Virus record (IMG/VR): IMGVR_UViG_3300020421_000035
Coordinates: 1 to 46,818 of that record
DNA: 46,818 nucleotides
From: a virus
Direction: 5' to 3' (one strand)
Shown here: positions 13,695 to 38,176 of the stretch, one piece after another
How positions within the stretch are numbered: position 1 is the first letter of the stretch
How the letters are laid out: every line of letters begins with the position of its first letter
Program-made: the position numbers and the translations under genes
Notes under the pieces: model-generated
Told to the model about the DNA's origin: nothing
Database searches by the model: none
Seen by the model: the letters and a program-made list of their open reading frames with translations, nothing else

Positions 13695-13901
13695 ATGGAC
13701 CACATTAAAGTAGAAGGGCACGATGGTCTCGTAAGAGACAAAAACACAGGTGCCATCATCAATTTGAACGATTCTGCAATATCTGCAAGGAGAAAGTCAA
13801 AACAGTTGAGTTCCGCGTTGGACGACATAAATATGTTGAAGAATGAAATCTCTGAAATCAAATCACTACTTAGAGAGTTAGCAAAAAATGCCCGCAATTA
13901 A
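13695..13901 (+). CDS. Small coiled-coil protein, conserved hypothetical
   Basis: A 68-residue protein. The N-terminal 25 residues look like a docking peptide (MDHIKVEGHDGLVRDKNTGA); the rest is a heptad-like helix (DDINMLKNEISEIKSLLREL). It starts 9 bases after the giant upstream gene and overlaps the next gene by 14 bases, so it is probably translationally coupled to it. The pattern resembles small cyanophage proteins that lie next to fibre genes. It could be a baseplate connector or an assembly chaperone; no function can be assigned. Confidence 0.75.
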   Translation: MDHIKVEGHDGLVRDKNTGAIINLNDSAISARRKSKQLSSALDDINMLKNEISEIKSLLRELAKNARN

Positions 13902-16900
13902 CGTCGCAAGAACTGATACCTTTGAAAAGCAAAGGCAGAAGATTAACCAAATTGGTGATCAAATTTTTAGCATCTCTCAAGGTGGTAGTGATCTTGCAAC
14001 AGGAAATCTAAAAATTGGAAATGGAACAAGAATTGCTCCATCATTAGCGTTTTCAACTGAAGAAACTCTTGGTTTGTATAGACCAGAGATTGGAACGCTT
14101 GGATTTATTGCATCTCAGAAAAAACTTTTTAATATTTCTGAAGCAGATATTGTTGCTTTCAGAGATTTTAAAGTACAACAATCAATCCTTCAAACAGCTG
14201 GTCTTACTATTACAGATAGTGGATCAAATTATGATGTTGGCATCTATGGAGATATTTCTCTTACTGGAGGAACTGGTGCTGGTGCTACTGCAAGTATTAC
14301 TGTCGTAGAGTTTGAAGGAACAGTAACTAATCTTGGTGCAAATTATAGTCCTGGAAGTTATGCTAGTGTGACTCCTATTGGTGGTAATGGTAGTGGTGCT
14401 TTAATTAGTTTTGAAGTAGAAGGAGTAGATGGAAATATCTCTGATCAGGGTAGTGCCTATGCACCAGGACAATACTCTGGTGTTTCTCTTACTGGGGGAA
14501 ATGGTTCTGGTGCTATAGCAGATATTGATATTATTGGAGATACTACTATTACTGGTAATATTTCTAATGCTGGTAGTGGATATGAAGATGGAACTTATTC
14601 TGGCGTACAGTTAACTGGTGGAAATGGATCAGCTGCAGAAGCAACTATTACTGTTGCTAGTAATATTGTAGACAGTGTTCAGATTGTATCAAGTGGTCTT
14701 GGGTATCAAGTTAACGACGTATTAAGTGCTGATCCAACATTTGATGGAATTGGAAATGGATCTAACTTTGCATTTACAGTTGCTACAGTAACTAATACTG
14801 GTTATGTTTCTAATGTAGTAATTTTAGATTCTGGACAAAACTATCAAGTTGGTGATGTATTAAGTGCTGCTGATGCTAATCTTGGTGGTGGCGGTGGTTC
14901 TGGATTCGAGTATACTGTAATTACTTCTCCAGGAATTATTCAAAATTTAGAATTTACTGATAGAGGTACTGGTTATCAAACAGGAGATGTATTAACACTT
15001 GGTTCTGGTGTGACTGGTCTCACAGCTCAATTAAAAGGACAAGTATTTGATGTTGCAACCACTGTAACTTCTGGTTCAACTAGTTTAACAGTTGCTGATA
15101 CTACAGGAATTGTTGCTGGAATGGATGTTGTTGGTGGTGGAGAATCAGATGTTGGAACACTTGCTGCAGGAACTACTGTTCAATCTGTTAATAGTGGAAC
15201 ATCTATTACTTTATCTGCTGCAGCAACTGGTACTGGAGCAATTACATTATCATTTACATCACAGGGAACATTAGAAGAAGTTTCTGTAACCTCTGTTGTT
15301 GGGATTGGGATTGGTGATGCAGTCACTGTTACTGGAGGAACTGGTGCTATTGCCATTGGCACTACTGTTAGTGGTATTGATTCAAACAATAATACTATTA
15401 CGTTATCACAACAACCCACAACTGCTGGTACAGCAACCATAACACTTGCCCCTGTTTACGGATCAGCTACGACAGATTTTGAATTTACTATTGGCGATCT
15501 TGGTATTGTAAGTGAAATTTCTGTTACTAACGGAGGAAATGGATATACAGATGCTGATCTATTGAGTGCAGAATCTTCTCAATTAACACAACCAATTGTA
15601 TTACCAGTAACTACCGTTTCTATTGATAAAATATCATTCTCTCCTGCTCCAGCAGATTCTACATTCTCTATTGGAACTGTGTTGAGGAAGGTAGATGGTA
15701 CTGTACAGGGAATCAATATCCAAACTCAACCAACAGTAACTCCAACAACAACTGGACCATTAGCATCTACACTTGATAGTAATTCTTTATCAATTACAGT
15801 TTCAAGTACAGCAGGAATTAGTGCAGGAGATATTGTATCTGGTGATGGTCTTGATGTTGGTCAACTTGCGGATAGCACTACAGTTGCTAATGTTGTAAAT
15901 GGCACAACTATTACTTTATCAACAGAACCTGCAATTTCTGGTGGAGCAAATCTTACATTTGCAACAGATGAATCTGGCACGTTCAATAACGTAGCTTCTA
16001 CATCTCCAAATGGAAGTGGAGCAACTTTTGATGTCATTAGATCTTCTGATGGTCAGGTACAGCAAGTTGATTTTGTACAAGGTGGAACATTTTATCAAGA
16101 TCTAGATGTAATCACAATAGCTGGTAATTTAATTGGTGGAACTTCACCAGCACATGATATTACTGTTCAGGTAAGTGCTGTTGTTACAAATGTAGATCAA
16201 CCAATACACAAGTTACTTAATTCTGGTGGCAATACTGATTTTGTTTATGCTACTTACGGAGCAGATTTATCTGCTGGAGATCAATTATACGTTGTTGGAA
16301 ATACATCAACATTATACACAGTAAATACATCTACTGGTCTACAAAATAGATGGTTTATTGATACTGGTTCTGGTGCTGTAATGACACCAAACCTGACATT
16401 ATATTCTAAATCTACTTATCAATTTGATTTAACTGATTCTAGTAACGCAGGACATCAATTTCTTTTATCTGAATTTAGAGATGGTCCTTACGCACCAAGT
16501 AACGCAACAGGAATCTCTGCAACCTTAGATGATACTAGCACAAACATTACTGTGTCTGATGCTTCCAACTTACTTGTCGGAATGGAAGCTGTTGTCACTT
16601 CTGGCAGTGGTGCCCTAAATCCATCTACTTTAATTACAAATATTGTAGGAAATGTCGTAACTCTAAGTGAGGCACCTGCTACTTCTGGATTTGCTACATT
16701 AGAATTTAAAGGAACAGAATACACAAATGGAGTTGTTAGGTCTGGATCTACATTAACTATCTCAGTTATCGACACCACACCAAATTTATATTACACTTGT
16801 GAAGTTCATCCAAATATGGGTGGTGAAGATAATGATGAGGCAACCATTACTATTGATTTAAACAATCCTAAGGTTTTTGGTTCAGGACTACAAATTACTG

Positions 16901-18870
16901 CAGATAGTGTAGTAGAAACTGATGTCATTCTATCTGATATTGAGAGTGGAACTCTAACCGCAGTCGCAATGTCTGCCCCAACAGGAACGTTTACAACTTT
17001 AAATTCTACAGGTATATCAACACTATCTTCTATTAATGCTAATTCACTGTCAGTTGCTGCAATTAATGGAAACACTATTACAGTAACGACATCAGGAACA
17101 TTACAATTAAATGGTGATATTGCTGTTGGATCTACAGCACCAATCACATTGTCTTCATCATCAGGAGACATTACAACATCAGGAGTTATAAAAACTTTCA
17201 ATAAATTGAATGTCAATAATAGTTTGACTATTACAAATAATGATATTGCTTCTGCTACTAATTTAGATATTAAACTAACACCAGCAACTGGAAGAGTTAC
17301 TAAAGTTGATTCTGTAAGTGCAATTACGATTCCTGCTGGTAATACTAATGAAAGACCTCCATCTGGAGTTGTTGAAAATGGTTCTATTAGATTCAATACT
17401 GACAGTAGTCAATATGAAGGATATAGTGCATCTACAAATTCTTGGGCATCTCTAGGTGGTGTTCGTGATATTGATGGTAATACCTATATTCTAGCAGAAC
17501 TTACCGCTGGATCAAACGACAATATTCTATACTTCTACAATGACGGAAGTAATACTCTGCAGTTAAATTCTGATTCCTTAGATTTTAGAACTGCTAAGAA
17601 CATATCATCAACAAAATTAGGTCTCCCATCATATTCTTCATGGACTGCTAACACTGCAGTTGCAACTGGAGATTATCTAAGATATAAAAACAATGTATAT
17701 GAAGTAACTAGCAATCCTGGTGGAACGACTGCTTCTTCTGGTAATGCTCCAACTCATACTACTGGAGCAGAAAACAATGGATCAGCACAACTTACATGGT
17801 CTGCCAGTGCTGTATCTCCTCTAACAATTTCTGAAGTAGAAGAACTTAGAGTTGGTCCAGATAAAGATTGTCCTTTAATTATTGGTCAAGAATTAAAATT
17901 AGATGACAATACAATCTCCACACAGATTCAAGATTTGGTATTAAAACCAAATGCAGGAAAACAAACTATTGTTGATTCTGTAACTCACTTTAGAATTCCT
18001 GCTGGTACTGATAACGAAAAATCAATCGCTGCAGCTGGTGCTGGTTCTATTCGTTTCAACACTACAATCCAACAGTTTGAAGGATATAGTGGTACTAACT
18101 GGTCATCTCTTGGCGGTGTTAGAGACGTTGATGGCAATACTTATATTATTCCAGAAACTGCTCCTGCAGCAAATGAAAACATTCTGTATTTCTACAATAA
18201 TAATGTTAACACGTTACAATTATCAGCTACCTCTTTAGATTTTACTGGAATTGATAACATCACGACTAGTGGAGGAAATTCACTAGCATTGAATACAGAA
18301 ATTGTTACCTTTAATTCTGTAGATACAACTATTGATAACAGTGATTCTACATCCACATTCATTAGTGGTACGAAGCAATATTTAGATCTTGGTTTATCAT
18401 CTGGACTTAATACTGATCCTATTCTTAGATTGGATGATCAAGGTGATGTTTATTTGAACACAACCTTTGGGTCTGGATCATTTAATGGAGTTAAGATTTT
18501 TGACGGTGAACTAAAAGAATTTGAATTAGCTGACTACAAACTTAAAACTTCTACATTCACACTAGATAAAGGTGGTTTAGAATCTTCTGCTGTGGTTCTT
18601 TATCCAAGTGGCACATCTAAAGGGTGTGAGATAACTGTGGTATCTAAATCGGATTCTGGAAAAAGATCTATGTCAAAATACTCTGTTATAGATAATGGTA
18701 CTGACATTTTCCATAATGAGTATGCTTCATTGAATACTTCAAGTGATCAGTATACAGCAACGTTTGACTATACTGCTTCTACAGAACCTAGAATTACCTT
18801 AACTCTAAGTGATGATCATAATGTTGCAGATATTATTAACTTCACCGTACTAGTTCAGGAAATTAAGTAA
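13888..18870 (+). CDS. Modular tail-fibre/baseplate protein with cupredoxin-like domain
   Basis: A 1660-residue virion protein. Residues 1-95 form an N-terminal element with TFEKQRQKINQIGDQIF, probably the attachment end. Residues ~106-360 are tandem Gly-rich beta repeats of about 45 residues (GSGYEDGTYSGVQLTGGNGS). Four copies of a ~65-residue beta module lie at residues ~390-458, 460-521, 626-691 and 877-941. A cupredoxin-like domain spans ~815-990 (His856; Cys971, His974, Met977) and is interrupted by the fourth module copy. The C-terminal third has a duplicated block with GGVRDIDGNTYI or GGVRDVDGNTYI, with a W/Y/PTH module between the copies (nt 17641-17810). The ATG at 13888 overlaps the upstream coiled-coil gene. 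Fibre role is inferred from architecture and position. Confidence 0.82.
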   Translation: MPAINVARTDTFEKQRQKINQIGDQIFSISQGGSDLATGNLKIGNGTRIAPSLAFSTEETLGLYRPEIGTLGFIASQKKLFNISEADIVAFRDFKVQQSILQTAGLTITDSGSNYDVGIYGDISLTGGTGAGATASITVVEFEGTVTNLGANYSPGSYASVTPIGGNGSGALISFEVEGVDGNISDQGSAYAPGQYSGVSLTGGNGSGAIADIDIIGDTTITGNISNAGSGYEDGTYSGVQLTGGNGSAAEATITVASNIVDSVQIVSSGLGYQVNDVLSADPTFDGIGNGSNFAFTVATVTNTGYVSNVVILDSGQNYQVGDVLSAADANLGGGGGSGFEYTVITSPGIIQNLEFTDRGTGYQTGDVLTLGSGVTGLTAQLKGQVFDVATTVTSGSTSLTVADTTGIVAGMDVVGGGESDVGTLAAGTTVQSVNSGTSITLSAAATGTGAITLSFTSQGTLEEVSVTSVVGIGIGDAVTVTGGTGAIAIGTTVSGIDSNNNTITLSQQPTTAGTATITLAPVYGSATTDFEFTIGDLGIVSEISVTNGGNGYTDADLLSAESSQLTQPIVLPVTTVSIDKISFSPAPADSTFSIGTVLRKVDGTVQGINIQTQPTVTPTTTGPLASTLDSNSLSITVSSTAGISAGDIVSGDGLDVGQLADSTTVANVVNGTTITLSTEPAISGGANLTFATDESGTFNNVASTSPNGSGATFDVIRSSDGQVQQVDFVQGGTFYQDLDVITIAGNLIGGTSPAHDITVQVSAVVTNVDQPIHKLLNSGGNTDFVYATYGADLSAGDQLYVVGNTSTLYTVNTSTGLQNRWFIDTGSGAVMTPNLTLYSKSTYQFDLTDSSNAGHQFLLSEFRDGPYAPSNATGISATLDDTSTNITVSDASNLLVGMEAVVTSGSGALNPSTLITNIVGNVVTLSEAPATSGFATLEFKGTEYTNGVVRSGSTLTISVIDTTPNLYYTCEVHPNMGGEDNDEATITIDLNNPKVFGSGLQITADSVVETDVILSDIESGTLTAVAMSAPTGTFTTLNSTGISTLSSINANSLSVAAINGNTITVTTSGTLQLNGDIAVGSTAPITLSSSSGDITTSGVIKTFNKLNVNNSLTITNNDIASATNLDIKLTPATGRVTKVDSVSAITIPAGNTNERPPSGVVENGSIRFNTDSSQYEGYSASTNSWASLGGVRDIDGNTYILAELTAGSNDNILYFYNDGSNTLQLNSDSLDFRTAKNISSTKLGLPSYSSWTANTAVATGDYLRYKNNVYEVTSNPGGTTASSGNAPTHTTGAENNGSAQLTWSASAVSPLTISEVEELRVGPDKDCPLIIGQELKLDDNTISTQIQDLVLKPNAGKQTIVDSVTHFRIPAGTDNEKSIAAAGAGSIRFNTTIQQFEGYSGTNWSSLGGVRDVDGNTYIIPETAPAANENILYFYNNNVNTLQLSATSLDFTGIDNITTSGGNSLALNTEIVTFNSVDTTIDNSDSTSTFISGTKQYLDLGLSSGLNTDPILRLDDQGDVYLNTTFGSGSFNGVKIFDGELKEFELADYKLKTSTFTLDKGGLESSAVVLYPSGTSKGCEITVVSKSDSGKRSMSKYSVIDNGTDIFHNEYASLNTSSDQYTATFDYTASTEPRITLTLSDDHNVADIINFTVLVQEIK
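14203..14950 (+). repeat. Coding tandem Gly-rich GSGY repeats
   Basis: At least five degenerate repeats of about 40-50 codons, each with an SGSNY/GANYS/GSAYA/GSGYE type turn, a G-x-Y-SGV strand and a TGGNGSGA turn. Similar repeats occur in five other virion genes of this window. Confidence 0.8.
15055..16710 (+). repeat. Four dispersed copies of a ~65-codon beta module
   Basis: Copies at about nt 15055-15260, 15268-15450, 15765-15960 and 16516-16710. Each begins with a short S-x-(S/N)-(L/I)-T-V strand, then a G(I/L)-x-x-G-(D/M) turn, a T-x-V/I-x-x-(V/I) strand and a closing TITLS...P/A..SG-A-x-L-x-F strand. The first three are free-standing; the fourth lies inside the cupredoxin-like domain. 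Confidence 0.75.
16330..16855 (+). other. Cupredoxin-like domain encoded inside the fibre gene
   Basis: The segment reads as two halves of a cupredoxin sandwich: an N-half with GHQFLL (His856) and a C-half with LYYTCEVHPNMGG (Cys971, His974, Met977). C-x2-H-x2-M matches the copper-binding loop spacing of amicyanin rather than plastocyanin. The ~85 residues between halves contain a copy of the protein's own repeated beta module. Similar 'YYxCxxHxxMGG' endings are common in marine phage and bacterial secreted proteins. Confidence 0.65.
17266..18260 (+). repeat. Duplicated ~110-codon block in the fibre C-terminal third
   Basis: Copy 1 at about nt 17266-17600 and copy 2 at about 17930-18260 share, in order, a K-L/LKP..G..T.VDSV strand, IPAG, GSIRFNT, a Q-x-EGYS turn, SLGGVRD(I/V)DGNTYI, NILYFYN and NTLQL..(D/T)SLDF. 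They are separated by a divergent ~330-base spacer carrying the W/Y/PTH module. Confidence 0.8.
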
Positions 18871-19417: not shown

Positions 19418-22400
19418 ATGAGTTTTCATATTAATTCCGATAAAGAAAAAATTAGGGGCGTCAACCCTAAACTTATCGGTGATAATGAGACAACCATCAG
19501 AGTTGGCGCGGGTGCTGACGAACGAGAAATATTACGTTTGGAGCTAGATGCCCAAAGCGGATTGCCTCGTGTAGGTATTAATAGAACTGGTCAAAGAATT
19601 AACAACATTGACATTGATGCAGGTGGTTCTGGATACACATTAGCGCCTACTGTTGTTATTGATCCACCACCAGCTGGCGGAACTCAAGCTCTTGCTTCAG
19701 CATTTATTTTTAATGGTGCTGTTGTTTCTATCGCAGTTAATGATCCTGGCAACGGATATACAACTGTTCCAAATATTGTATTTACTGGTGGTAATGGTGC
19801 TGGTGCTGCGGCAACTGCAGTCCTTGACTCTGTTGACTTTGAACTTGATATCAATGGTGCTATCAGAACCTCCACATCTATTATTTCAGATACTGCGAGA
19901 ATTCTCAACCTAGACATTGAGAACTTTATTACTCCAGATTTGAACATGAGGGCACCAAACCTCAAAACATATATGAATGGAACTGGTACGCCATGGGCTG
20001 CCAATGTTATTGTATCTAAAGGTGCTTATAGATACTCAGCATCAAATGTATATGAAGCAAAAAATACAGGAACTACTGGGACATCTTCTCCTACTCATAA
20101 GAATGGAATTGAAGTAAATGGAACTGTAAACTTTAAGCATATTGGTTTTAGAGTTAATGATCCAAATGATTATAAGTTCCTTGAAACTGGTAACGCTGGT
20201 GAGTTTCCTCGTTCTATCACACCTATTCTAGGTGATAGATCTGACAAGATTGCAACTACAGAATACGTCCTCAACCTAGCAACGAATGACGTTGGTGGTC
20301 GTGTTTATGTTTCACAGCAGATTGGTTCTGACCTTAACGATGGTCGTTCTGCTGTAAACCCAGTCCGTACTATTAAAAAAGCAGCACAGATTGCTTGGTC
20401 TACTCCTGGCGTTAAAGAAACACTTATTATTTCTGGTGGTGACTACGTAGAAGATAACCCAATTTCACTACCACCTGATTGTTCAGTTGTTGGTGATAAC
20501 CTACGTTTGGTAATTATCAGACCAGCTAACCTTGGAAAACACATCTTCAAGTTTGGTGATAAAAACTATGTTACTGGTGTAACATATAGAGATAAAGTTG
20601 ATGCTAATGGCGACTCAATTGGAACTTGGGACTTTGCCATGGTCTTTGACGACAAGCAAAGAGTCCTTATTGATAATGAAGTAAATGGAGATTTTGGTGT
20701 AGAGTTTCCAATTGGTCATCAAGTTTTTGGACCAGAACAATTCCGTATCGCATTCCAAAATAACACAGGACTATCCCTACTTCAATCTGGTGTTGAAGCT
20801 GTAGGTCTAAACACTGGTGCTAGAGCAAATGTAATTGGAGTTACTTACAATTCTGAAACGGGTGCTAACGCATATGTTAGTGGTACTATTGATGTACAAA
20901 TAAAATCTGGTGCTCTAATTGAAGGTGATCAATATAGTTACGTTACATCTGCTGCTACTGGTGGAGCATTATCGTTAACTATTTCATCCACATCTGGTTC
21001 TAACACACTAAGATTTACTACAAATCCAACAACTGATATTCCAGTAAGTGCTGTTGTATTTTTAGATGACACTGATGATAGTAGTTTTACATCAGGTTAC
21101 TATCAAGTAGCTAGTATTGATACTGCAAATGCACCAACTTATTGGGATGTTGCATTTAATCCAATTCTAGGTGCTCCTAGTTGGGATACCACTCAATCAG
21201 AAACAATTTTAATTAACTCTGCTACGACAGTATCTAATACAATTGATACTGTAAGTTTAAAGTCAATCAGAGCTGAGGGTGAAGTTGTTTCTTATGATGA
21301 AGATATAACATCAACTCTACCTATTGCTAGGGTTGACTTCTCTCTACAAGGAGATCCAAGCATTGCAACTGGTGGTTTCCAAGATTCTCAGTTTGGTAAC
21401 GCAGAAGACATTGGTGGTATCGTATTCTACACAAGTGCTCTTGTAGGTAGAACTAATACTCATGAATTTAAAGAAGGACAGGAAATTATCATTACTGGAA
21501 TGCCAACGGTATCTCCAGATTTGTCTTTCCTTAATGGCAAACAAAGAATTTACAAGGTTCTAGAAGATGCTGATGGTCGTTCAAGAAGATTTGTAATTCC
21601 TAAAAAATTACCATCACTAACAACAGCAAACTTTGATCCTGGTCAATTTGCAACTGTACAGTCATATTCTAAATCTGTTACATTAACACTACTCAACTCT
21701 CCAAACAAGTTTCCTCTTGCTCAACCTGTTGAAAGAAGGTTCCAAGATGCTTGTCAGTTAATTAGAAATAACAGAGATTATATTGCAGAAGAAGTAGTTG
21801 GTATTATTAACGAGCAATTCTCAAAAGATTATTTCTCTGTATATAATATTGATACCGTCAACAATACTTTTGACATCTTCCTAGGTACAACAGATCATGT
21901 TAACACATATGTTAGCGGTGGTACAGTAACATTTGGTGGAACTTCTTATGCCATTAGCGATTTTCTGTATGATAATGCTGTAAATGGCGTAGCTACAATC
22001 ACAACGACAAATGCTGCTGTTAGTGCATTGTCTGAAGATGATACTGTTAAACTAGCAGACATTCTAATTGAGTGTTCAGCTGGTCAAAAAATTTATCCAG
22101 CATATAGTTCCCCAACTTCTGGAAACAATATTAACACTGATGGTGATGAGCAGTGTAAGCAAGATGTTATTCACTTCCTCAATGCTTTAGTAAGAGACCT
22201 TGAATTTGGATCTAACCATAACATTATTGAAGCTGCTGGTAAGTATATTGTTGGTGGTAAGATTGCTTTCATTGAAGATGAAATTATTCAAAATGTACGT
22301 GCTATTGAATATGCTAGAGAACTAGCAATTTATGCAATGTGCAACTGGAGGATTAAGAACAGAACTACTGGTGATCCTTCATACGTTACAAAACACGCTA

Positions 22401-25400
22401 CAAGCACAAGATATGTTGATCCTACTATCATCTCTGCAACAGCAGGAAGTCCTGCTTGTGATGATGTAAGATCTGCTATTGACACTCTATCATTCCTTTG
22501 GGTAGATGTTATTTCAAATAATGCATCTGGAACATATATTGATGCTGCATATTTGATTGCTAGAAACGCTGATGTAATTGCGGATCAAGCACTTATTGAT
22601 ACAGAAGTTGTATATCCAACACTTAATCTTTCTGATGTACATCAGAGAAAATGTCGTAGAGATATTAAAATTGTATTACGAGGACTAGCGAGAGACTTAG
22701 TTCTTGGTGGAAACCACGGTATTGTTTCTACCGCAGAATCATATTTCAGTGGAACTGTTCTTTCTGGTATTCCAGAAGCACAGAGAGCAGAAACAATCTA
22801 TGCTTTCCAAAGAGTAAAACTCTATGCCATCCAGGCAATGCGTAACTGGTCTGATGGAAACGTTTTACAAACAACTCCAACAGGATCTACATATGTTCCT
22901 ACTACTGGAGCTATGACAGTAGTCATTCCAGATCCAGCAGTATTACCTGTAGCAAATTCAGACAGGATTGCTTTCGTTGAGGGAGCAATTACATATAGTT
23001 GTGCTGCTGGCGGCGGTGGAAACGATGCAAGTCCATATAGAACTGACCTTAACTTCGGTCAAAGTTTCCTAATCACTAACGTAACTTCTAGTGGTGGTAA
23101 CACTACTATTAGTTTAAATGTTGGCGTAGCAGGAGCGAATACTGACTCACATACATTTGTAAGTGCTCTTGCTAATGGCACCAAGGTTATCTACGGTCCT
23201 GTTACATTATCATCTCCAATTCCTAAGTTTGAAGATTGGAGTATCTTAAATGGAGTTGGCGCTGCTCCAATTGGTATCTTCACTCCAACCACCGCTACTT
23301 ACGATCCAGCAAATGGTGATTTTACGTTTACCACCGCGACGGCACATGGTTTATCGGCATCAAACACAATTCGTTTCCAACCAGAATCACTAACGTTTAC
23401 TTGTGATATGGATAACAATGCTACAGAGCATAAGTATCCAAAAGATGGTCAACCTGCATATGGTAATAGTCTTCCAATTGTTTCAACAACAACAAATACA
23501 GTTACTGTTAATGTTGGTGCTTCAGGTCCTAACGTACAGTTTACACCATCTGCTGCAACTTACGATCCTGCAACAGGATCACTAGTATTAGAAATTGGTA
23601 ATCATACTTTAGATGTTGGAGAAGGTATTGTTATTGCTGACAATTCTCTAACATTTACTTGTACCTCTGATGGTAATGTTTCTAACGAGACATATCCAAG
23701 ACCAAGTGATCCTGCATCTGGCAAATCTATTCCAATTACAGGAAAAACATCTACTTCAATTACAGTTAATGTTGGTGCATCTCCTGCTGGACAGCAATAT
23801 GATCATACATTTGTAAGTGCAGCAGCTAATGCAGTTTCACATCTTCCACAATCAACTCATTCATTTGTAAGTGCAAGTACAGATGCAGTAAGTGCTTATT
23901 CTTCTAGCACTACAGCAATTTGTGCTGGCGTAGAATCTAGTATTGACACAGCATTAGAATTGTTTGAGGACATTTTAGATGGAACAACTATTCCTGGTTC
24001 CACAACTCAAACGTTTGGAACTTTGTATGATACTAGTGCTATTGTTTCATACCCAGATAGTTTCATTACTGATTTCCAAAATCAGAGAATGGCGATTCGT
24101 GGTAGATATGATGACTTCCCAATTATTGAAGCTTCACCATATACACAGAACGCATCTGTTATCTCATTCAGAGGTGGTGGTGGTGCTCTAATTGATGGTA
24201 CAAAAGTTAAGCAACCTAACTGTCCATTCCCTGGTCTAGAACCAGATGGAAGCGCATCCTTCCCTAACCAAGGTAAGTCGATGGTTGCTGCAGCATTCAC
24301 GATTGTATCCTTTGGTGGTACAGGTTATAAGGTCATCGAAGATGGTTATACACAGTTAGTTTCTGTCTTTGTTATCTTCTGTCAAGATGGTGTTCTCTGT
24401 GAAACTGGTGGATATGCATCTATTACCAACTCTGCTACTAACTTCGGTACATTTGCTCTAAGAGGAACTGGATTTAGAAGAGAATGTTATGAGTTTGACA
24501 CAGGTACAATTAATGTAGTATCTCAAACTCCAACTGGTAGAACTACTCTTACTGTTGGTGGTATTGGTAGAGAACCACTTGAGCACTATATTGTTAAGAT
24601 TGATGGATATACAAATGCAGATCCAGCAAAAGAGTTCTTTATTGATGCTGTATCTGGTGTTACTGTTGGACCTCCTTTCTCTGCAACTCTCGTTATTGAT
24701 GATGGTGTTGGTAATGGACTAAGTTTAATTGAAACCTCAACTGGTAATACTGTTTCTGGTTTAACAGCACTACAGCAAGCACTTACTCCAGCAGCTGCAT
24801 CTAATGCAACAATCAAGTTACATAGACCATCTATTGTTAACTCTTCCTCCCACACTTGGGAATTTGCTGGTTCTGGTAATAACTACCTTGCACTACCTGA
24901 GAACGGTGGTACTAAAGTAGAGGCAAACGAGCAAGTATCTCAAGATTATGGTCGTGTATATGTCTCTGGTACTGACGAATTAGGTGACTTTAAAGTTGGT
25001 ACATTCGCAAGAATCGAAAACAGAACTGGTAACATCACCTTTACGGGTACGGTTACCATCTCTGAAGTTGAATTCTTGAAACTGAAAGGTGGAGACGTTG
25101 TTGTTACTGGTTTCGATGCATCCAACACACTTGGTGGTGCTAACACTAGTGACTCTAAACTACCTACACAGAAGGCAGTTAAGGACTTCATTACAAACAA
25201 CCTAGGTCCATACATTAACAAACCTTTCTCAACCAACGCTGTTCCTAGAGCACTGGTTGAACTGACTGACTCTGGTAAAATTTCTATTGACCAGATTCCT
25301 GCTCTAAGACCTTTCCAAGTATTCACTGTTGCAACCCAAGCAGACAGATTGAAGATTGAAGGTGCTCTTGCTGGTGATATCGCTATCCAACAGGATACAT

Positions 25401-28400
25401 CACAGTCATTCATCTTAAACAATGACCTAGAAAGTTTATTCTTAGGATTCCAAGTTGATCCCAGTTTAACATTTAATATTAATGATGTATACACTGGTAC
25501 TCCTTCTACAGGTAGAATTCAAGCTACTGAATATAGAGAGGGCGTACTTCGCCAAATTCTTATTACTGATGGTGGTTCGGGATACACTGTTCCTCCTACC
25601 GTATCAATTTCTGGTGGTAACCCAGCATCTGGTGCTGTTGCAGCAACTGCAACTTGTACCATTGCAAATGGTGAAGTTGTTACTATTACCATTGACGAAA
25701 ACCTTGGTCTAGTTGGTGGTAGTGGATATACAACACAACCTGTAATTACTATTCAAGCACCTCCAGGAGCTGGTACTCAAGCACAAGCAGATGGTTTTAT
25801 TGAGAGTAGATTGTATGGTGATATTGTTAACAATATCAAGATGCTTGATACTGACACATTTGATGATAGTACCGCTGCACCAAACACAAATACTATCAAT
25901 ATTTCTAGAGTTGTCAACACATCCTCTACTAATAATGCTAACTGGGTATCTCTATCATCCAACCAAATTGCTGCTTCCGATATCACATCAGGTGTTATTG
26001 AAACAGATAGATTAGCATCAGGTGGTGCTGCTAACTCGTTCACTTTCTTAAGAGGTGACCAAAACTTTGCTCCTGCTGTACAATCTATTAAAGGTGCAGA
26101 GACAAGATACTTTGCAAGATTAGCGTCTCAAGCATCAAACGGTGCTAATGCGTTTATCTTTACTAGTAATTCAGATGCTTTGATTGGTCACTCAGTTGTA
26201 GCAAACGTTGCTGGTATTGCAGCAAATACAAACATCAATGGAGTTACTACTGTTGGTGGATTGACAACTGTTTCTCTTAACAATCCTATTACAGCAACTA
26301 TTGCATTAGGAACAGTTATTGAATTTGAAAGAGGTGCTTCTCCTCTAACATTTGATTCTTCAAATACAGTTGGTAACTTTATTGACAGTGTTGTAATTGC
26401 TAATCCTGGTAGTGGTTATACAGATGGTCAATATTTTGATATTGGTCTTGATGGAGGAACAGGAGTTGATTTAAGAGCTAACCTCATTATTTCTGGAGGA
26501 GCAGTTACTGATGCTACCGTAACAAATGCTGGTTCTGGTTACAATGCAGATTTCCAGATTACACCTAATCCAAGTGCTATTGGTGGTGGATCTAACCTAG
26601 TTCTTCTTGGTAAGGTCAGCACTGTTAATAAACAGTTTGCTAATGTTGCAGTTGATATTCAAAGAGTTTCTGATCTAACAATTTCCGCTGATCTCTTCGG
26701 AACAATTGGTGTTGCAAGATTTAAGAAATCACAGTTCAATATTGGACAAGAAGGAAACGGTTCTATTACAATTAAAACAGGTCCCGATAGTGGACTTGAT
26801 GCTGACTTACTAGATGGTCAGCAAGGTTCTTACTACCTCAATGGTGCATTCTTCGTTGATAGTAGTATCAATCCAGACAAACTTGCAAGTGGTACTTACA
26901 GTATTGATATTAGTGGTAAATCTACTAATACACTTCGTGTTGACACTGGTATTAGTAACCCAACTTCCAACCCAGCTCCTAGTGGTTCTGTTCAAGGTTT
27001 AACACTAAACACAGTATTCAATAGTTCCAATGGTCTATTGTCAGCATTCCCAAGTGTAGATACTGGTACTTCTAACTCAGCTAAACACTTAGTTATGACT
27101 CTCCGTAATGGTGAGTCTGGTATTGATGCTACATTTGGTGGTGTAAGACAACTTGCATTTGCCAATGACGATAGAATTTATCTACGTGGTTCTGGTGATG
27201 GTGTAACAAACTATGGATCTTGGTATGAAATTTGGAACTCAGGTAACCAAGGTATTGATTCTGGATTAGATGCTGACAAACTTGATAATAAAGAAGGTAT
27301 TTGGTATCAAGATGGTTGGAATATTCAGAAAAATGAAATTTTTGATACACGACTCCCAACATGGAGAAGTTCTACTAAATTTAGAAACAAGATTGAAGTT
27401 AAATCTTACTCTGGATCAGATGTTTCATATAGAATTCTAGTAAGACAAGTTCTTGATACTGGTGCTGGTGGAGATTTCTCACCAGGATCTCAAATTAATA
27501 TTTACAATATCAACAAACAAGATATTGGTGATTTCTTCATTGATAACGCTCCACAGTTAAATGATCAAAATGATTCTACTAATAGCTATACAATGCTTAT
27601 CGGTAGACTTGCTTCAGGTGGTAATCTCGAACAGGCAGTATTCCTTGGTGTTGCTGGTGATGAAAGACGTTTTGAAAACTATGAAATTTTTGATAGTAAT
27701 ACAGTTCAGTTTGCTGAACTTGGAAACAATTCTGGTTCTGGATTCTTAAGACTTGGTAGATATGATGGCAACTTTGCCACAAATCCATACATCTACTTTA
27801 ACTCTTCTCAAGCACAAGCAGTAGACAATAACAACGATCCTTCCTATAACTCTGCTATTATTGCCGATGGTGGTAATGCAACAGAAGGATCTGGTTCTTT
27901 AGAATTTAAAGTTGTAGATGAAAATGCATTAACTGTTAACAGTAACATTCTTTGGAACGCAGGTAATGTTGCCTTTAACTCTTCTAATGTAGTTTCTACA
28001 GCTTCACTGAAATCTGCTGTAGTGAGAGATACCAATGGCGATTTTTCTGCTGGTACAATCAGTGCAAATCTAACTGGTGCTGCATCACTCAACGTATTGA
28101 AGACGGGTGATACTATGACTGGTGGTTTAACAATCACTGGCAATAATAATCTTAACATTCAAGGAACTGGTACTTTAAGTGTTGGTGGAAATACAACTAT
28201 CACAGCAGACCTTACCGTTGATAGCGGAACACTATATGTTAACTCGACTAATAACAGAGTTCTCATTGGTTCAACTACTGAATCAAATCCTGCCATCTTT
28301 AACGTTTATGACGATGCTGGTAATAGTAACTTCGCGACTAACTCAGCACTATCTTCTCAGATAACACTTTATCAATCAAGTGTATTCAGACAAAAAAATA

Positions 28401-29359
28401 ACGGTGAATCTGGTATCATACTACAACATGGAAACTCTTCTCCTGCTCAATGGGGTATTTCAGCACATAGAACAGGTGCTAATGTTGGTGAATTAATTGT
28501 CAGAACCAGAACAGCTAACGCTACTTCTGCTGAGAGATTAAAAATTAGTAATGGTGGTAACGTCCTTCCTGGTGCAACTAACGATCAAGAAATTGGTTCA
28601 GGTTCTCTCAAGTGGGCAAATGTTCATACTCATATTGTTACTGTTAAGGATAGCACTAGAATTGGAGATGGAACTGCTAACGCTGAAGCAGATATTCATC
28701 TCAGAGGTGGTGGTACTGGAAACGGTGGTGGTAGAGGATTCCGTTTAGGATCTAACATTGGCGGTGGTGCTGATGTATTTGAAATCTACTCATCTCAAAC
28801 TAATGGTAGTGATGATTGGAAGAGTTTAGCAGCTGGATCTCCAGCACTTGCTATTAAAGGTTCCAACAATAGAGTTGCTATTAATACAAATCAATTCCAA
28901 GGAGTTGATACAACAGTTTCTCCAAATGTTACTAGAAATTATCAACTTAACATTGATGGTGATGTCAACTTCAACGGAACATTATACCAAGACAATGCAG
29001 AATTTGTAACTTCCAGATGGACAGAATCTCCAAATGGTAACAACATTTATAGAGCATCATTTGTTGGTATTAACTTTATTCAATCTGGAACCAAAGAACC
29101 ACAATTCCCATTAGAAGTTTATGGTGGATCTAATATCCTAGGATCTTCCTTCACGAATGAAGTTAACTCCCATACTCTTTATGCTAATGGAGATCCACAG
29201 TGGTTGGATACTTACGGAGTATTCAAAGCAAATAGAAATACTTGTTCGGAAAATATTACAATTCCACAGAATACTAATTGTATGACTGCTGGACCTGTAT
29301 CCATAAATAACAATGTAATTATTACAATCGCTGACGGAGCTTCTTGGAGTATAGTATAA
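19418..29359 (+). CDS. Giant (3313-residue) tail-fibre-like virion protein
   Basis: The largest gene in the window. Order of modules: Gly-rich GSGYT repeats (residues ~66-138); a W/Y/PTH module (nt 19990-20150); a beta-helix entry (YVSQQIGSDLNDGRSAVNP then RTIKKAAQ, residues ~298-325), as in pectin-lyase-fold fibre proteins; two CxRDI helical modules (nt 21731-22390 and 22540-22860); three TFTC/YPR beta repeats (nt 22900-23820); a conserved block around FPGLEPDGSASFPNQGKSMV (nt ~24160-24610); a phage-fibre LPTQKAVKDFI repeat; more GSGYT repeats (25555-25800, 26392-26610); two GLDAD-x-LD segments; and a C-terminus ending GASWSIV after IPQNTNCMTAGP, a common cyanophage fibre ending. It probably forms a long fibre or baseplate appendage; the exact organelle is unknown. 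Confidence 0.85.
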   Translation: MSFHINSDKEKIRGVNPKLIGDNETTIRVGAGADEREILRLELDAQSGLPRVGINRTGQRINNIDIDAGGSGYTLAPTVVIDPPPAGGTQALASAFIFNGAVVSIAVNDPGNGYTTVPNIVFTGGNGAGAAATAVLDSVDFELDINGAIRTSTSIISDTARILNLDIENFITPDLNMRAPNLKTYMNGTGTPWAANVIVSKGAYRYSASNVYEAKNTGTTGTSSPTHKNGIEVNGTVNFKHIGFRVNDPNDYKFLETGNAGEFPRSITPILGDRSDKIATTEYVLNLATNDVGGRVYVSQQIGSDLNDGRSAVNPVRTIKKAAQIAWSTPGVKETLIISGGDYVEDNPISLPPDCSVVGDNLRLVIIRPANLGKHIFKFGDKNYVTGVTYRDKVDANGDSIGTWDFAMVFDDKQRVLIDNEVNGDFGVEFPIGHQVFGPEQFRIAFQNNTGLSLLQSGVEAVGLNTGARANVIGVTYNSETGANAYVSGTIDVQIKSGALIEGDQYSYVTSAATGGALSLTISSTSGSNTLRFTTNPTTDIPVSAVVFLDDTDDSSFTSGYYQVASIDTANAPTYWDVAFNPILGAPSWDTTQSETILINSATTVSNTIDTVSLKSIRAEGEVVSYDEDITSTLPIARVDFSLQGDPSIATGGFQDSQFGNAEDIGGIVFYTSALVGRTNTHEFKEGQEIIITGMPTVSPDLSFLNGKQRIYKVLEDADGRSRRFVIPKKLPSLTTANFDPGQFATVQSYSKSVTLTLLNSPNKFPLAQPVERRFQDACQLIRNNRDYIAEEVVGIINEQFSKDYFSVYNIDTVNNTFDIFLGTTDHVNTYVSGGTVTFGGTSYAISDFLYDNAVNGVATITTTNAAVSALSEDDTVKLADILIECSAGQKIYPAYSSPTSGNNINTDGDEQCKQDVIHFLNALVRDLEFGSNHNIIEAAGKYIVGGKIAFIEDEIIQNVRAIEYARELAIYAMCNWRIKNRTTGDPSYVTKHATSTRYVDPTIISATAGSPACDDVRSAIDTLSFLWVDVISNNASGTYIDAAYLIARNADVIADQALIDTEVVYPTLNLSDVHQRKCRRDIKIVLRGLARDLVLGGNHGIVSTAESYFSGTVLSGIPEAQRAETIYAFQRVKLYAIQAMRNWSDGNVLQTTPTGSTYVPTTGAMTVVIPDPAVLPVANSDRIAFVEGAITYSCAAGGGGNDASPYRTDLNFGQSFLITNVTSSGGNTTISLNVGVAGANTDSHTFVSALANGTKVIYGPVTLSSPIPKFEDWSILNGVGAAPIGIFTPTTATYDPANGDFTFTTATAHGLSASNTIRFQPESLTFTCDMDNNATEHKYPKDGQPAYGNSLPIVSTTTNTVTVNVGASGPNVQFTPSAATYDPATGSLVLEIGNHTLDVGEGIVIADNSLTFTCTSDGNVSNETYPRPSDPASGKSIPITGKTSTSITVNVGASPAGQQYDHTFVSAAANAVSHLPQSTHSFVSASTDAVSAYSSSTTAICAGVESSIDTALELFEDILDGTTIPGSTTQTFGTLYDTSAIVSYPDSFITDFQNQRMAIRGRYDDFPIIEASPYTQNASVISFRGGGGALIDGTKVKQPNCPFPGLEPDGSASFPNQGKSMVAAAFTIVSFGGTGYKVIEDGYTQLVSVFVIFCQDGVLCETGGYASITNSATNFGTFALRGTGFRRECYEFDTGTINVVSQTPTGRTTLTVGGIGREPLEHYIVKIDGYTNADPAKEFFIDAVSGVTVGPPFSATLVIDDGVGNGLSLIETSTGNTVSGLTALQQALTPAAASNATIKLHRPSIVNSSSHTWEFAGSGNNYLALPENGGTKVEANEQVSQDYGRVYVSGTDELGDFKVGTFARIENRTGNITFTGTVTISEVEFLKLKGGDVVVTGFDASNTLGGANTSDSKLPTQKAVKDFITNNLGPYINKPFSTNAVPRALVELTDSGKISIDQIPALRPFQVFTVATQADRLKIEGALAGDIAIQQDTSQSFILNNDLESLFLGFQVDPSLTFNINDVYTGTPSTGRIQATEYREGVLRQILITDGGSGYTVPPTVSISGGNPASGAVAATATCTIANGEVVTITIDENLGLVGGSGYTTQPVITIQAPPGAGTQAQADGFIESRLYGDIVNNIKMLDTDTFDDSTAAPNTNTINISRVVNTSSTNNANWVSLSSNQIAASDITSGVIETDRLASGGAANSFTFLRGDQNFAPAVQSIKGAETRYFARLASQASNGANAFIFTSNSDALIGHSVVANVAGIAANTNINGVTTVGGLTTVSLNNPITATIALGTVIEFERGASPLTFDSSNTVGNFIDSVVIANPGSGYTDGQYFDIGLDGGTGVDLRANLIISGGAVTDATVTNAGSGYNADFQITPNPSAIGGGSNLVLLGKVSTVNKQFANVAVDIQRVSDLTISADLFGTIGVARFKKSQFNIGQEGNGSITIKTGPDSGLDADLLDGQQGSYYLNGAFFVDSSINPDKLASGTYSIDISGKSTNTLRVDTGISNPTSNPAPSGSVQGLTLNTVFNSSNGLLSAFPSVDTGTSNSAKHLVMTLRNGESGIDATFGGVRQLAFANDDRIYLRGSGDGVTNYGSWYEIWNSGNQGIDSGLDADKLDNKEGIWYQDGWNIQKNEIFDTRLPTWRSSTKFRNKIEVKSYSGSDVSYRILVRQVLDTGAGGDFSPGSQINIYNINKQDIGDFFIDNAPQLNDQNDSTNSYTMLIGRLASGGNLEQAVFLGVAGDERRFENYEIFDSNTVQFAELGNNSGSGFLRLGRYDGNFATNPYIYFNSSQAQAVDNNNDPSYNSAIIADGGNATEGSGSLEFKVVDENALTVNSNILWNAGNVAFNSSNVVSTASLKSAVVRDTNGDFSAGTISANLTGAASLNVLKTGDTMTGGLTITGNNNLNIQGTGTLSVGGNTTITADLTVDSGTLYVNSTNNRVLIGSTTESNPAIFNVYDDAGNSNFATNSALSSQITLYQSSVFRQKNNGESGIILQHGNSSPAQWGISAHRTGANVGELIVRTRTANATSAERLKISNGGNVLPGATNDQEIGSGSLKWANVHTHIVTVKDSTRIGDGTANAEADIHLRGGGTGNGGGRGFRLGSNIGGGADVFEIYSSQTNGSDDWKSLAAGSPALAIKGSNNRVAINTNQFQGVDTTVSPNVTRNYQLNIDGDVNFNGTLYQDNAEFVTSRWTESPNGNNIYRASFVGINFIQSGTKEPQFPLEVYGGSNILGSSFTNEVNSHTLYANGDPQWLDTYGVFKANRNTCSENITIPQNTNCMTAGPVSINNNVIITIADGASWSIV
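21731..22860 (+). repeat. Two CxRDI helical modules
   Basis: Each copy has a helix with DA-x-x-LI-x-x-N-x-D-x-IA, then a K-x-x-x-DI/DV helix with DL-x-x-G-x-NH-x-I and a final A-x-x-(Y/V)-x-x-x-L/Y-A-I-x-AM-x-NW helix. In the first copy a beta-rich insert of about 120 residues separates the halves. A third copy starts the window (nt 3-230). Confidence 0.75.
22900..23820 (+). repeat. Three TFTC/YPR beta repeats in the giant fibre gene
   Basis: Copies at about nt 22900-23205, 23283-23525 and 23540-23820. Copies 2 and 3 share TYDPA-x-G, SLTFTC, a DxN turn, YP(K/R), G-x-(S/P)-(L/I)PI and TVNVGAS, and are followed by HTFVSA segments; copy 1 is more diverged (ITYSCAAGG, SPYRTD). Each keeps one Cys in the same strand. 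Confidence 0.78.
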
Positions 29360-29360
29360 A

Positions 29361-30455
29361 ATGAGTCAACTATCAGTTCACGATATTCGCGGTATATCTG
29401 CTTATAACAACAAAATTAGAGTTCCTGCAGGTCATCAATTAGATATTGAGGGACTACTAAAACTTCCCCAATGGACAGAAGGATCAAAACCTTCAAATCC
29501 AGATGTTGGACTACAGGGGTGGAATACGGAACTTGAAGTATTAGAATTTTATGATGGTACTGACTGGAAAGTTTTATCAAGTTCTGCTATTGGAACACAA
29601 GAATCTCCAGCAGCTTCTGCTAAAGATCTTGTAGCAAATGGTCAAACAACAGACGGTGTTTATTGGATCAAGGCAAGTTCTTCAGCACCTGCTCAGCAAA
29701 TTTATTGTATTTTAGATCCAGCATATGATGGTGGTGGATGGATGATTGTAGCAAATAATTCTGCTTCAAATGTTTTGTATACATCATCACACATTTGTAG
29801 ATTTACCGCATATACATCTTATGTCGGTACTTCTGGATCCAATTCATATTCTCCAAGTAATAATTTTAGTATTAATTGTACTGATATGCAGTTCAATAAA
29901 TGCGTTTGGGTTATCACAAATTCAAACTCAAACTTTATTGGTTCTGGTGGTAGTAATGTAACTGGTTATATTAACTACACATGGAATAATCAAATTACTG
30001 TTCCTACCGAACAACAGTATTGGTCTGCTGATAATGGAAACAATGGATTTTCTATGGGATCAACTGTAAGTTGGCCAGGTTTTGGTGCAAAGAGAATGAA
30101 TTCTAGTTATGGTGGTTATGGTCAAAACAGTAGTCAGAACTATGGTTTTGGTACACTCCACAGTAGCTCATATTCAACGAACAGAGGATCAGGAACTCAA
30201 TACAAAGTATATGGAAGTGGTGGAGCATATTATCCTGTAACAGTTGCTTTCCAAGGTTCTAATGGTACTAGTGGAAATGTGATCGCATACTATGCTTATA
30301 GTTGGACAGATTCTAGAACTGGTAATGGTAGCACATACAGTAATACAGGATTTGATGACTGGCAAGATGGATCTGGTCTTGGAGATCAGTGGAACGTGGA
30401 AGGTGGAGACAAGTCAACCACTCGTGGTAAACCAAGTTTTATCATGATTAAGTAA
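29361..30455 (+). CDS. Adhesin-like protein with fibrinogen-type motif
   Basis: A 364-residue protein starting one base after the giant fibre gene. The N-terminal ~85 residues (HDIRGISAYNNKIRVPAGHQ, then FYDGTDWKVL) form an element seen in other cyanophage fibre proteins. Residues ~98-130 contain DGVYWIK...IYCILD...DGGGWMIVANN, which matches the start of fibrinogen-C-like domains (VYWI, YC.mD, GGGWT). The rest is rich in Gly, Ser, Asn, Tyr and Trp and ends GKPSFIMIK. This suggests a fibre tip that binds surface glycans; host binding is an inference. It is the first of three related genes (see 31330 and 32336). Confidence 0.78.
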   Translation: MSQLSVHDIRGISAYNNKIRVPAGHQLDIEGLLKLPQWTEGSKPSNPDVGLQGWNTELEVLEFYDGTDWKVLSSSAIGTQESPAASAKDLVANGQTTDGVYWIKASSSAPAQQIYCILDPAYDGGGWMIVANNSASNVLYTSSHICRFTAYTSYVGTSGSNSYSPSNNFSINCTDMQFNKCVWVITNSNSNFIGSGGSNVTGYINYTWNNQITVPTEQQYWSADNGNNGFSMGSTVSWPGFGAKRMNSSYGGYGQNSSQNYGFGTLHSSSYSTNRGSGTQYKVYGSGGAYYPVTVAFQGSNGTSGNVIAYYAYSWTDSRTGNGSTYSNTGFDDWQDGSGLGDQWNVEGGDKSTTRGKPSFIMIK

Positions 30456-30474
30456 TCACAAAAATTATAGAACA

Positions 30475-30738
30475 ATGACTCAACCATTTGCTGACTATGA
30501 TGCGTTATATGAAGGACGCATGGAATCTCTCAAGAAAAAGAGAGAAGAAAAATTTAAACAACTAGACGGGGATTTTTTCAAAGCTCTAGAAGTTAATGAT
30601 AAAGCTTCCCAAACAAGGATTGCAAACAAGAAAAATAAATTTAGAGATTTTCCACAAGAGATGGAAGGTAAAACATTTTCATCAAGAGATGCTATAATTA
30701 ATTATGAACCAGAGTGCTTTAAAAATGAGACAATGTGA
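30475..30738 (+). CDS. Small charged protein resembling tail assembly chaperone
   Basis: An 87-residue highly charged helical protein. The central pattern (KREEKFKQLDGDFFKALEVND, then KKNKFRDFPQ) resembles phage tail assembly chaperone proteins, in which a LD-x-x-F-x-x-A-E helix is followed by a K-x-x-x-RD-(L/I/F)-P motif. It lies between an adhesin and an oxygenase gene, fitting a role in folding fibre tips. The match is by eye, so the family assignment is moderate. The last 14 bases overlap the next gene. Confidence 0.7.
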   Translation: MTQPFADYDALYEGRMESLKKKREEKFKQLDGDFFKALEVNDKASQTRIANKKNKFRDFPQEMEGKTFSSRDAIINYEPECFKNETM

Positions 30739-31300
30739 ATATACAACAAGCACAGGAAAAAAGATTTATGTTTTCCGTGATGTATATAACTACGATAGGC
30801 AATTAAATTTACTTGATTGGTGTGTTAGACAAAACTATAGATTCAGACCATCTACAGAAGGTGTATTGATTGGTCTTAAAAGCGATTTGGTTTTGAGCGC
30901 ACATCCAGGATTAGAACTTCCACAACTAGCAGAACAATTTTCTTTAAATGATGAGAAGTTAAAACCAATAGTAGATATTATTGGAAACGAAAGAGAGTTG
31001 AAAGCACATTGGATTAACGCCAACATTTCAAAAACATCTCCACATTTTCATCCAGATAGTTTTAAAAAAGGATCTTTGTCCATGCTTTACTATGCAAATG
31101 TAAAGTGGGACCTTTCTTGGGATGGTTATACAGTATGGGCGTCAGATGATTTAAACAATATCGAGCATGTAGAATTTCCAGAACCAGGTAAAATTGTTAT
31201 CTTTGATTCTAGTATACCACACAAACCAACAGCTGCTGGACCAGAAGCACCATCATTTAGATATACAATGAATACAGTTTGGGAACCGCTAAATAGTTAA
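30725..31300 (+). CDS. 2OG-Fe(II) oxygenase (hydroxylase-like)
   Basis: A 191-residue protein with the jelly-roll dioxygenase signature: the iron ligands H-x-D at His109/Asp111 (SPHFHPDS), the distal His166 (SSIPHKP) and Arg179 (SFRYTMNTVWEP) for the 2-oxoglutarate carboxylate. A typical SLSMLYYAN strand follows the HxD. The residue order fits prolyl-hydroxylase-like enzymes frequent in cyanophages. I chose the ATG at 30725, preceded by an AGAG box; an in-frame ATG at 30704 would add seven residues but lacks one. The substrate is unknown. Its position inside the adhesin cassette, overlapping the chaperone-like gene, suggests it could modify virion proteins, though nucleic acid or host protein substrates remain possible. 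Confidence 0.85.
   Translation: MRQCEYTTSTGKKIYVFRDVYNYDRQLNLLDWCVRQNYRFRPSTEGVLIGLKSDLVLSAHPGLELPQLAEQFSLNDEKLKPIVDIIGNERELKAHWINANISKTSPHFHPDSFKKGSLSMLYYANVKWDLSWDGYTVWASDDLNNIEHVEFPEPGKIVIFDSSIPHKPTAAGPEAPSFRYTMNTVWEPLNS
31289..31295 (+). promoter_or_regulatory. Candidate late promoter CTAAATA
   Basis: CTAAATA overlaps the last codons of the oxygenase gene, 41 bases before the ATG at 31330, a position like other late motifs here. Because the DNA is AT-rich and the site is partly coding, support is moderate. Confidence 0.5.
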
Positions 31301-31329
31301 ACATAACATGTCCAAAGAAGTAGATAGTC

Positions 31330-32322: not shown

Positions 32323-32335
32323 GTTTTAAAAGAAA

Positions 32336-37377: not shown

Positions 37378-37542
37378 ATGAGTTTTGAGAATGAAATGCG
37401 TTTTAACGACACGGATCTCGATCGTCTAACGATTGCTTGCAAGCTCTACCAAGAGCGAACAGGTAGTGAATGGATGTGGGATCAATATAATGCCTTGATT
37501 ATTAAACTCAAAGCATACAAAGAAAATTATTCAACTGACTAA
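37378..37542 (+). CDS. Small hypothetical protein, 54 residues
   Basis: A 54-residue acidic helical protein (MSFENEMRFNDTDLDRLTIA, then YQERTGSEWMWDQYNALI). It ends with a TAATG overlap onto the plastocyanin gene, so the two are likely co-translated. The F-x-x-x-DLDRL...CxxYQ...GSEWMWDxY pattern looks like a conserved cyanophage protein, but I know no function. Confidence 0.72.
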   Translation: MSFENEMRFNDTDLDRLTIACKLYQERTGSEWMWDQYNALIIKLKAYKENYSTD

Positions 37543-37865
37543 TGAAATTTTTATTTGCGTTCATAGCAACGTTATTTTTTGCTGCGCCTGTATGGGCAGT
37601 AGATGTGAAAATGGGTGCTGGTGGAAACCTAGCATTTGAACCTAATGAGATTACAATCTCAGCAGGTGACACACTACACTTTGTAAATGAGGCACTACCT
37701 CCTCACAATATTATTGTTGAAGCACGTCCCGATCTTTCGAGAGAGGCATTGCTTTTTGCACCTGGTGAGTCACAAGATATTCTATTCGCTGACGCTGGCG
37801 ACTATGAATTCTTCTGTGGTCCACATCAGGGTGCAGGTATGACTGGTATTATTCACGTTCAATAG
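37542..37865 (+). CDS. petE: Plastocyanin
   Basis: A 107-residue blue copper protein. Residues 1-19 form a Sec signal peptide (hydrophobic LFAFIATLFFAA, cleavage after PVWA), which would deliver it to the thylakoid lumen. The type-1 copper ligands are all present: His55 (PPHNI), Cys92, His95 and Met100 in FFCGPHQGAGM. Plastocyanin carries electrons from cytochrome b6f to photosystem I or cytochrome oxidase. The mature form (88 residues) is a little shorter than the usual ~97-99 of cyanobacteria. It sits directly before ferredoxin, with which it brackets photosystem I. Such genes are known in T4-like cyanophages. Confidence 0.93.
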   Translation: MKFLFAFIATLFFAAPVWAVDVKMGAGGNLAFEPNEITISAGDTLHFVNEALPPHNIIVEARPDLSREALLFAPGESQDILFADAGDYEFFCGPHQGAGMTGIIHVQ

Positions 37866-37877
37866 ATTAAACAAAAC

Positions 37878-38165
37878 ATGTATACGATTACTTGGAAAAC
37901 GAGCGAAGGCGAAAGCACATTTGAGTGCGATGAAGATACAAACATTTTAGATGCCGCAGAAGAGGCAGGGGTCGATGGTCCATATTCTTGTAGAGCAGGA
38001 GCATGTTCTACATGTGCAGGAAAATTAGAATCAGGAACAGTAGATCAAGAAGAGCAATCATTTCTTGACGATGATCAAATGGAAGAAGGATTTATTTTGA
38101 CTTGTGTTGCAAAACCTACAAGTGATTGTGTAGTTCTTACAGAACAAGAAGAAAAACTATATTGA
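37878..38165 (+). CDS. petF: [2Fe-2S] ferredoxin, plant/cyanobacterial type
   Basis: A 95-residue soluble ferredoxin. The cluster ligands are Cys38, Cys43, Cys46 and Cys76 ([10 protein letters not shown]...LTCVA), the standard C-x4-C-x2-C-x29-C arrangement. N-terminal beta strands, the acidic surface and the C-terminal EEKLY are typical of photosynthetic ferredoxin, which takes electrons from photosystem I to FNR, nitrogen/sulfur assimilation or bilin reductases. Cyanophage ferredoxins are known. The gene lies 12 bases after plastocyanin and 11 bases before the Gnd-like gene, consistent with one operon. Confidence 0.94.
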
Positions 38166-38176
38166 GGAGTTATATA

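Follow-up and report, generated by a model that had tools for sequence, protein, structure and literature searches.

A repeat-split cupredoxin-like domain with a predicted copper site in a virion structural protein of a T4-like cyanophage

Cupredoxins are electron carriers. The cyanophage analysed here encodes a plastocyanin (petE; 37542..37865, + strand), a different kind of cupredoxin that is considered for comparison only; it is a member of PF00127 (E = 2.6e-19) and has a C-x2-H-x4-M loop. An earlier note on this DNA had pointed to another cupredoxin-type domain, located inside a tail-fibre protein, and had correctly contrasted its C-x2-H-x2-M loop with that of the phage's own plastocyanin. 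In the literature searched, mostly open-access papers, no cupredoxin or plastocyanin-like domains were found in phage tails; the cupredoxin fold is known, but that search gave no earlier description of it as a module of phage tail proteins. New here are the split of the domain by an insert and the reciprocal retention of its ligand site.

The window, i.e. the whole stretch of DNA that was analysed (46,818 nucleotides, a 46.8-kb IMG/VR virus record), comes from a T4-like cyanophage, in which genes for the baseplate wedge, neck, terminase, tail sheath and plastocyanin were recognised. The domain lies in a 1660-aa ORF (13888..18870, + strand) that is an orthologue of phrog_6005 (S-PM2d086, Syn1_099) and matches the phrog_6005 profile over its full length (E = 0, 1797 bits). 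The ORF is placed between phrog_473 and phrog_5449, in the same order as in S-PM2 and others, and is surrounded by genes for small structural proteins and for a 3313-aa tail fibre protein (phrog_5342; 19418..29359, + strand). The label 'tail-fibre protein' in the earlier note is a putative one; PHROGs describes phrog_6005 as a 'virion structural protein' in the category head and packaging/virion structural. The C-terminal part of the 1660-aa protein is similar to the baseplate wedge phrog_32294. At least 46 cyanophage records contain most of the split domain, with 35-54% identity.

Three other features of the window were observed. A glycine-rich repeat of the neck protein (phrog_460, 34513-35637) is also present in the 1660-aa protein at residues 209-280 (E = 5e-8), and the profile of this repeat recurs among several baseplate and fibre PHROGs. 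The region 29361-33421 comprises genes for three proteins (364, 330 and 361 aa) with N-termini that are alike and C-terminal parts rich in Gly, Ser, Asn and Trp, which resemble a set of paralogous adhesins or fibre tips. A 172-aa ORF at 38126-38644 resembles the N-terminal part of 6-phosphogluconate dehydrogenase and is shorter than that enzyme; it is perhaps truncated or frameshifted.

The cupredoxin-like domain covers approximately residues 808-990 of the 1660-aa protein and is interrupted by a 67-residue insert (residues 875-941; 16510..16710, + strand; insert HMM i-E 2.2e-21). We built a profile (A3 HMM) from 62 unsplit marine-viral domains and compared it with 390 frames of the window. 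The 1660-aa ORF alone was matched, in two stretches, ~808-878 (i-E 1.6e-8) and 941-982 (i-E 1e-9), and, in the reverse view, an unsplit relative aligned to the phrog_6005 profile in two stretches as well. The first half of the domain (~residues 808-873; 16309..16506, + strand), which the AlphaFold strands also support, includes His856, the predicted first copper-ligand position (16453..16455, + strand). The second half (residues 941-982; 16708..16833, + strand) carries the ligand loop LYYTCEVHPNMGG, in which C971-x2-H974-x2-M977 (16798..16818, + strand) has the spacing of amicyanin. These four positions and the loop had been given in the earlier note and are exact in the translated ORF, where the codons start at 16453 (H856), 16798 (C971), 16807 (H974) and 16816 (M977). 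C971 is the sole Cys of the domain, and a disulphide role for it was ruled out on that ground. No second cupredoxin copy was detected in the 1660-aa protein of the window with the A3 HMM, and its split site is canonical.

Sequences homologous to the insert occur three times upstream in the same protein, at residues 389-457 (15052..15258, i-E 1.1e-16), 464-520 (15277..15447, i-E 1.1e-9) and 625-692 (15760..15963, i-E 1.8e-17), all on the + strand. In the S-WAM2 orthologue the domain has no insert and is continuous from profile position 66 to 145. It appears that one copy of a beta-rich repeat, also present upstream, interrupts a cupredoxin-fold module.

The window domain does not match the curated cupredoxin profiles PF00127 and PF13473 even at E = 10, and a single-sequence PDB search with it returned no match. 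Both blank searches would fit a motif that arose by chance in a beta-rich fibre domain unrelated to cupredoxins, and because of them the assignment requires evidence from profiles and structure. One unsplit relative matched PF00127 at 7e-4, narrowly under the cut-off. A profile of the orthologues (A2) gave chance matches only against PDB, probably because the insert dominates the alignment. With the A3 profile, 15 PDB sequences were reached, and every one was a cupredoxin or a copper enzyme (E 0.06-0.7 each). We predicted the structure with AlphaFold from an alignment of own-locus homologues, with a pLDDT of 91.8 and a pTM of 0.85 for the window domain, and 92.7 and 0.86, respectively, for an unsplit relative. 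In a Foldseek search with the window model, PDB ranks 1-20 were all cupredoxin-fold proteins, namely laccases, copper nitrite reductases, rusticyanin and AcoP (best E = 0.011, none below E = 1e-3); the weak E values are probably due to the insert. For the unsplit relative, rusticyanin and copper nitrite reductase were top-ranked, with E down to 3.4e-4. Against predicted viral structures, the window model matched cyanophage proteins: orthologues, tail fibres and gp9 connectors.

The predicted fold of the window domain is a Greek-key beta-sandwich of cupredoxin type. According to DSSP on the model, H856 stands directly before strand 858-861 and C971 closes strand 967-971, as in cupredoxins, so that the ordered ligand set His...Cys-x2-His-x2-4-Met has the expected strand placement in the model. 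The predicted sandwich, the A3 HMM halves and the Foldseek neighbours together bear out the proposal of a cupredoxin-type domain with a full ligand set and an insert. Chance resemblance is countered by the profile, structure and conservation evidence, and the two-half A3 HMM match together with the cupredoxin neighbours in Foldseek refutes it in practice; we regard it as hardly credible.

In the A2 alignment of 65 orthologues, the first His is present in 54, the loop Cys and His in 54 each, and the last ligand position is Met in 28 and Glu in 27. When 80 distinct orthologues were classified, 33 had H-C-H-M, 17 had lost the site and the other 30 had H-C-H-E, in which the loop is longer. The first His was present in all 63 orthologues with the loop Cys and His, and in three of the other 17; among these orthologues the ligands are retained or lost largely as a set. 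The earlier note had left open whether the domain binds copper or is a copper-free descendant, and the ligand patterns that would be expected for both occur among the orthologues (33/80 and 17/80, respectively). A copper-free structural descendant, i.e. a plain beta-sandwich in which the four residues are relics in the window phage, is in agreement with the 17 of 80 orthologues that have the fold without the site, with S-WAM2, which has neither site nor insert nor N-terminal copy of the domain (see below), and with the difference at the site between the window phage and its nearest relative (L154, 79% identical), which has the long-loop Glu variant in place of the canonical site. Relics, however, are not expected to persist as a complete set, and the first His is invariant in the 62 unsplit relatives, which makes this explanation rather unlikely.

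In the H-C-H-E variant (L003, L008, L016, L164 and 26 other orthologues) the spacing from Cys to His is 3-4 residues greater and Met is replaced by Glu, and this variant may represent a different metal site. A soft metal other than blue type-1 copper (Fe, Zn, Ni or Cu(I) only) could be considered, the long-loop H-C-H-E set being maybe a second chemistry: Glu replaces Met in 30 of 80 orthologues with a loop 3-4 residues longer, and a phage fibre protein, T4 gp37, binds iron in its fibre according to earlier work cited in PMC11705849. The window loop C-x2-H-x2-M, on the other hand, is the amicyanin copper loop, and non-copper relatives were absent among the structural neighbours ranked 1-20. We consider another metal improbable in the window domain.

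Differences between orthologues with and without a canonical split site were observed in the N-terminal part of the protein. Among isolates, all six that had lost the split site carried a further cupredoxin domain at the N-terminus, unsplit and with the four ligands complete, whereas all seven with a canonical split site had no N-terminal cupredoxin domain. Of 67 orthologues, 18 combined a canonical split site with the lack of an intact N-terminal copy, 41 combined an altered or lost split site with an intact N-terminal copy, one had both sites intact and seven had neither in canonical form. In other words, an intact N-terminal copy accompanied 41 of 48 altered or lost split sites and one of 19 canonical ones. 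In two orthologues with a canonical split site (L184 and L162) the N-terminal copy was present, with its ligands gone. Among the seven without a canonical site, four keep a long-loop H-C-H-E or H-C-H-M set. Some phages can therefore do without the site, since these seven lack a canonical one and S-WAM2 has none at all.

The raw Fisher test of this reciprocal pattern gave p = 2e-9 (67 orthologues). On the domain tree, approximately seven kept/lost changes of the split site were reconstructed, of which well-supported branches force only two. A test of correlated evolution, run on the domain tree with the ligand columns removed, gave a likelihood ratio of 21.0 (4 df, p = 3e-4) from only 6-8 tree changes per trait, and the two-site state was the least stable. 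A sister-pair test of the association was not significant, with too few contrasts on well-supported branches. The near-exclusive retention suggests that selection maintains a single functional metal site in each protein, an unusual form of evolutionary book-keeping with one metal site per polypeptide. If the four residues were relics, the loss of one copy should not track the presence of another.

Members of the family were sought with a degenerate DNA pattern for YYxCxxHxxMGG, in which the loop was fixed and the first His was left out. The pattern was found in at least 120 viral stretches or contigs. A His was located 25-75 residues upstream of the loop in 111 of 111 translated domains long enough to judge, and across the 62-sequence alignment A3 the first His was invariant, though outside the search pattern. 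The unsplit module was present in 369 of 50,697 phage records; most of these were cyanophages, and a small number were phages of Pelagibacter and Methylophilales. With these 369 records, and at least 120 viral contigs found by the motif alone, the earlier note's view that such a virion protein would be unusual is not supported; the domain is widespread. In P-SSM4 gp9 the module forms the C-terminus after a T4 gp9/10 N-terminal domain, and in a SAR11-assigned contig it is located behind the N-terminal domain of a T7 tail fibre. The cupredoxin domain was seen in T7-type tail fibre genes of several SAR11-assigned contigs (L252, L261, L284 and others, filed as Pelagibacteraceae), which are probably prophage or co-binned phage DNA.

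The S-SCSM1 protein gp231 (long tail fibre proximal subunit) is a relative with all four ligands and carries the record label 'virion protein'. For S-SCSM1, 45 proteins were detected by mass spectrometry in CsCl-purified virions (PMC9602691), and in our reading the label refers to that detection. The sole family member of S-CREM2, ORF130, was also detected by mass spectrometry; its ligand loop is degenerate, and S-CREM2 was dropped as proteomic evidence for the site in the virion since ORF130 shows the fold only. Marine gammaproteobacteria and archaea also have the module, in proteins that resemble lipoproteins and contain cadherin or collagen repeats. At loci such as L239 and L272, such repeats are joined to the cupredoxin domain. 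Occurring in phage tail proteins and in cellular lipoproteins, the module is therefore a surface module common to viruses and cells. The family has no Pfam model.

Taken together, we favour, with some confidence, a copper-binding cupredoxin-fold module of structural or adhesive function on the tail or baseplate, carried by the phrog_6005 protein. The complete type-1 ligand set and the amicyanin-length loop would most likely bind a single copper ion in each copy of the polypeptide in the virion, and the metal would probably lock the end of the beta-sandwich, resulting in a rigid structural or adhesive module. We infer the identity of copper, its binding in the particle and this role: a bound metal should matter to the protein because the site is retained as a set and in a single copy per protein wherever it is located, and copper is favoured because of the loop and the fold. 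Since cupredoxins carry electrons and the same phage encodes petE, a part in redox chemistry or electron transfer, on the host surface or inside the infected cell and together with the phage plastocyanin, might be envisaged. The domain, however, is located within a 1660-aa structural protein in which no redox partner domain was recognised, its relatives are on fibres, baseplate connectors and adhesin-like surface lipoproteins, and its loop spacing is of amicyanin and not plastocyanin type. Stabilisation or adhesion is for these reasons likelier than electron transfer, which we consider distinctly improbable.

A broader proposal, which we put forward as doubtful, is that marine phage tails commonly carry copper via this unnamed cupredoxin family, with selection for a single functional site per protein and with copper taking part in adsorption to the host surface; such tails would be for copper what the iron-bearing fibres of T4 are for iron. 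Should the site be loaded, ocean viruses of a very abundant class would carry a transition metal on the tail by means of a known copper fold, infection would include a metal-dependent step and virions could be a possible copper ligand in seawater. Whatever the function, because the family is absent from Pfam, annotation could be extended to many phage genes now labelled 'hypothetical' or 'structural' and to surface lipoproteins of marine archaea and SAR86.

Comparison with known systems places the window domain as follows. The HxH iron-binding fibres of the T4 gp37 type are an example of a metal-loaded phage fibre, with a possible tie to metal-poor seawater, but they bind iron via HxH motifs, which are absent from the 1660-aa protein; as this protein has no two His spaced by two, iron binding of this kind was rejected. 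PetE (phrog_515) belongs to the same superfamily and is encoded by the same phage. Unlike the window domain, it stands alone as a 107-aa protein, which has a signal-like segment at the N-terminus, a C-x2-H-x4-M loop and a role in auxiliary metabolism, and the window domain does not have the defining features of a plastocyanin (C-x2-H-x4-M, a free secreted protein, PF00127). Amicyanin, rusticyanin and the domains of copper nitrite reductase resemble it in the predicted fold and in the ligand order His1...Cys-x2-His-x2-Met, and amicyanin also in the length of the loop. In contrast to these cupredoxins, the window domain is part of a phage structural protein, is split by a repeat and is below detection by PF00127 and PF13473, and its copper site is predicted. 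Its homologues are the unsplit modules of cyanophage gp9, T7-type tail fibres and long tail fibre proximal subunits (phrog_677, phrog_30742, phrog_693), which have no insert and no Pfam name and are located in other, mostly shorter proteins; the full ligand set is present in those of P-SSM4 gp9, S-SCSM1 gp231 and the SAR11 contig L252.
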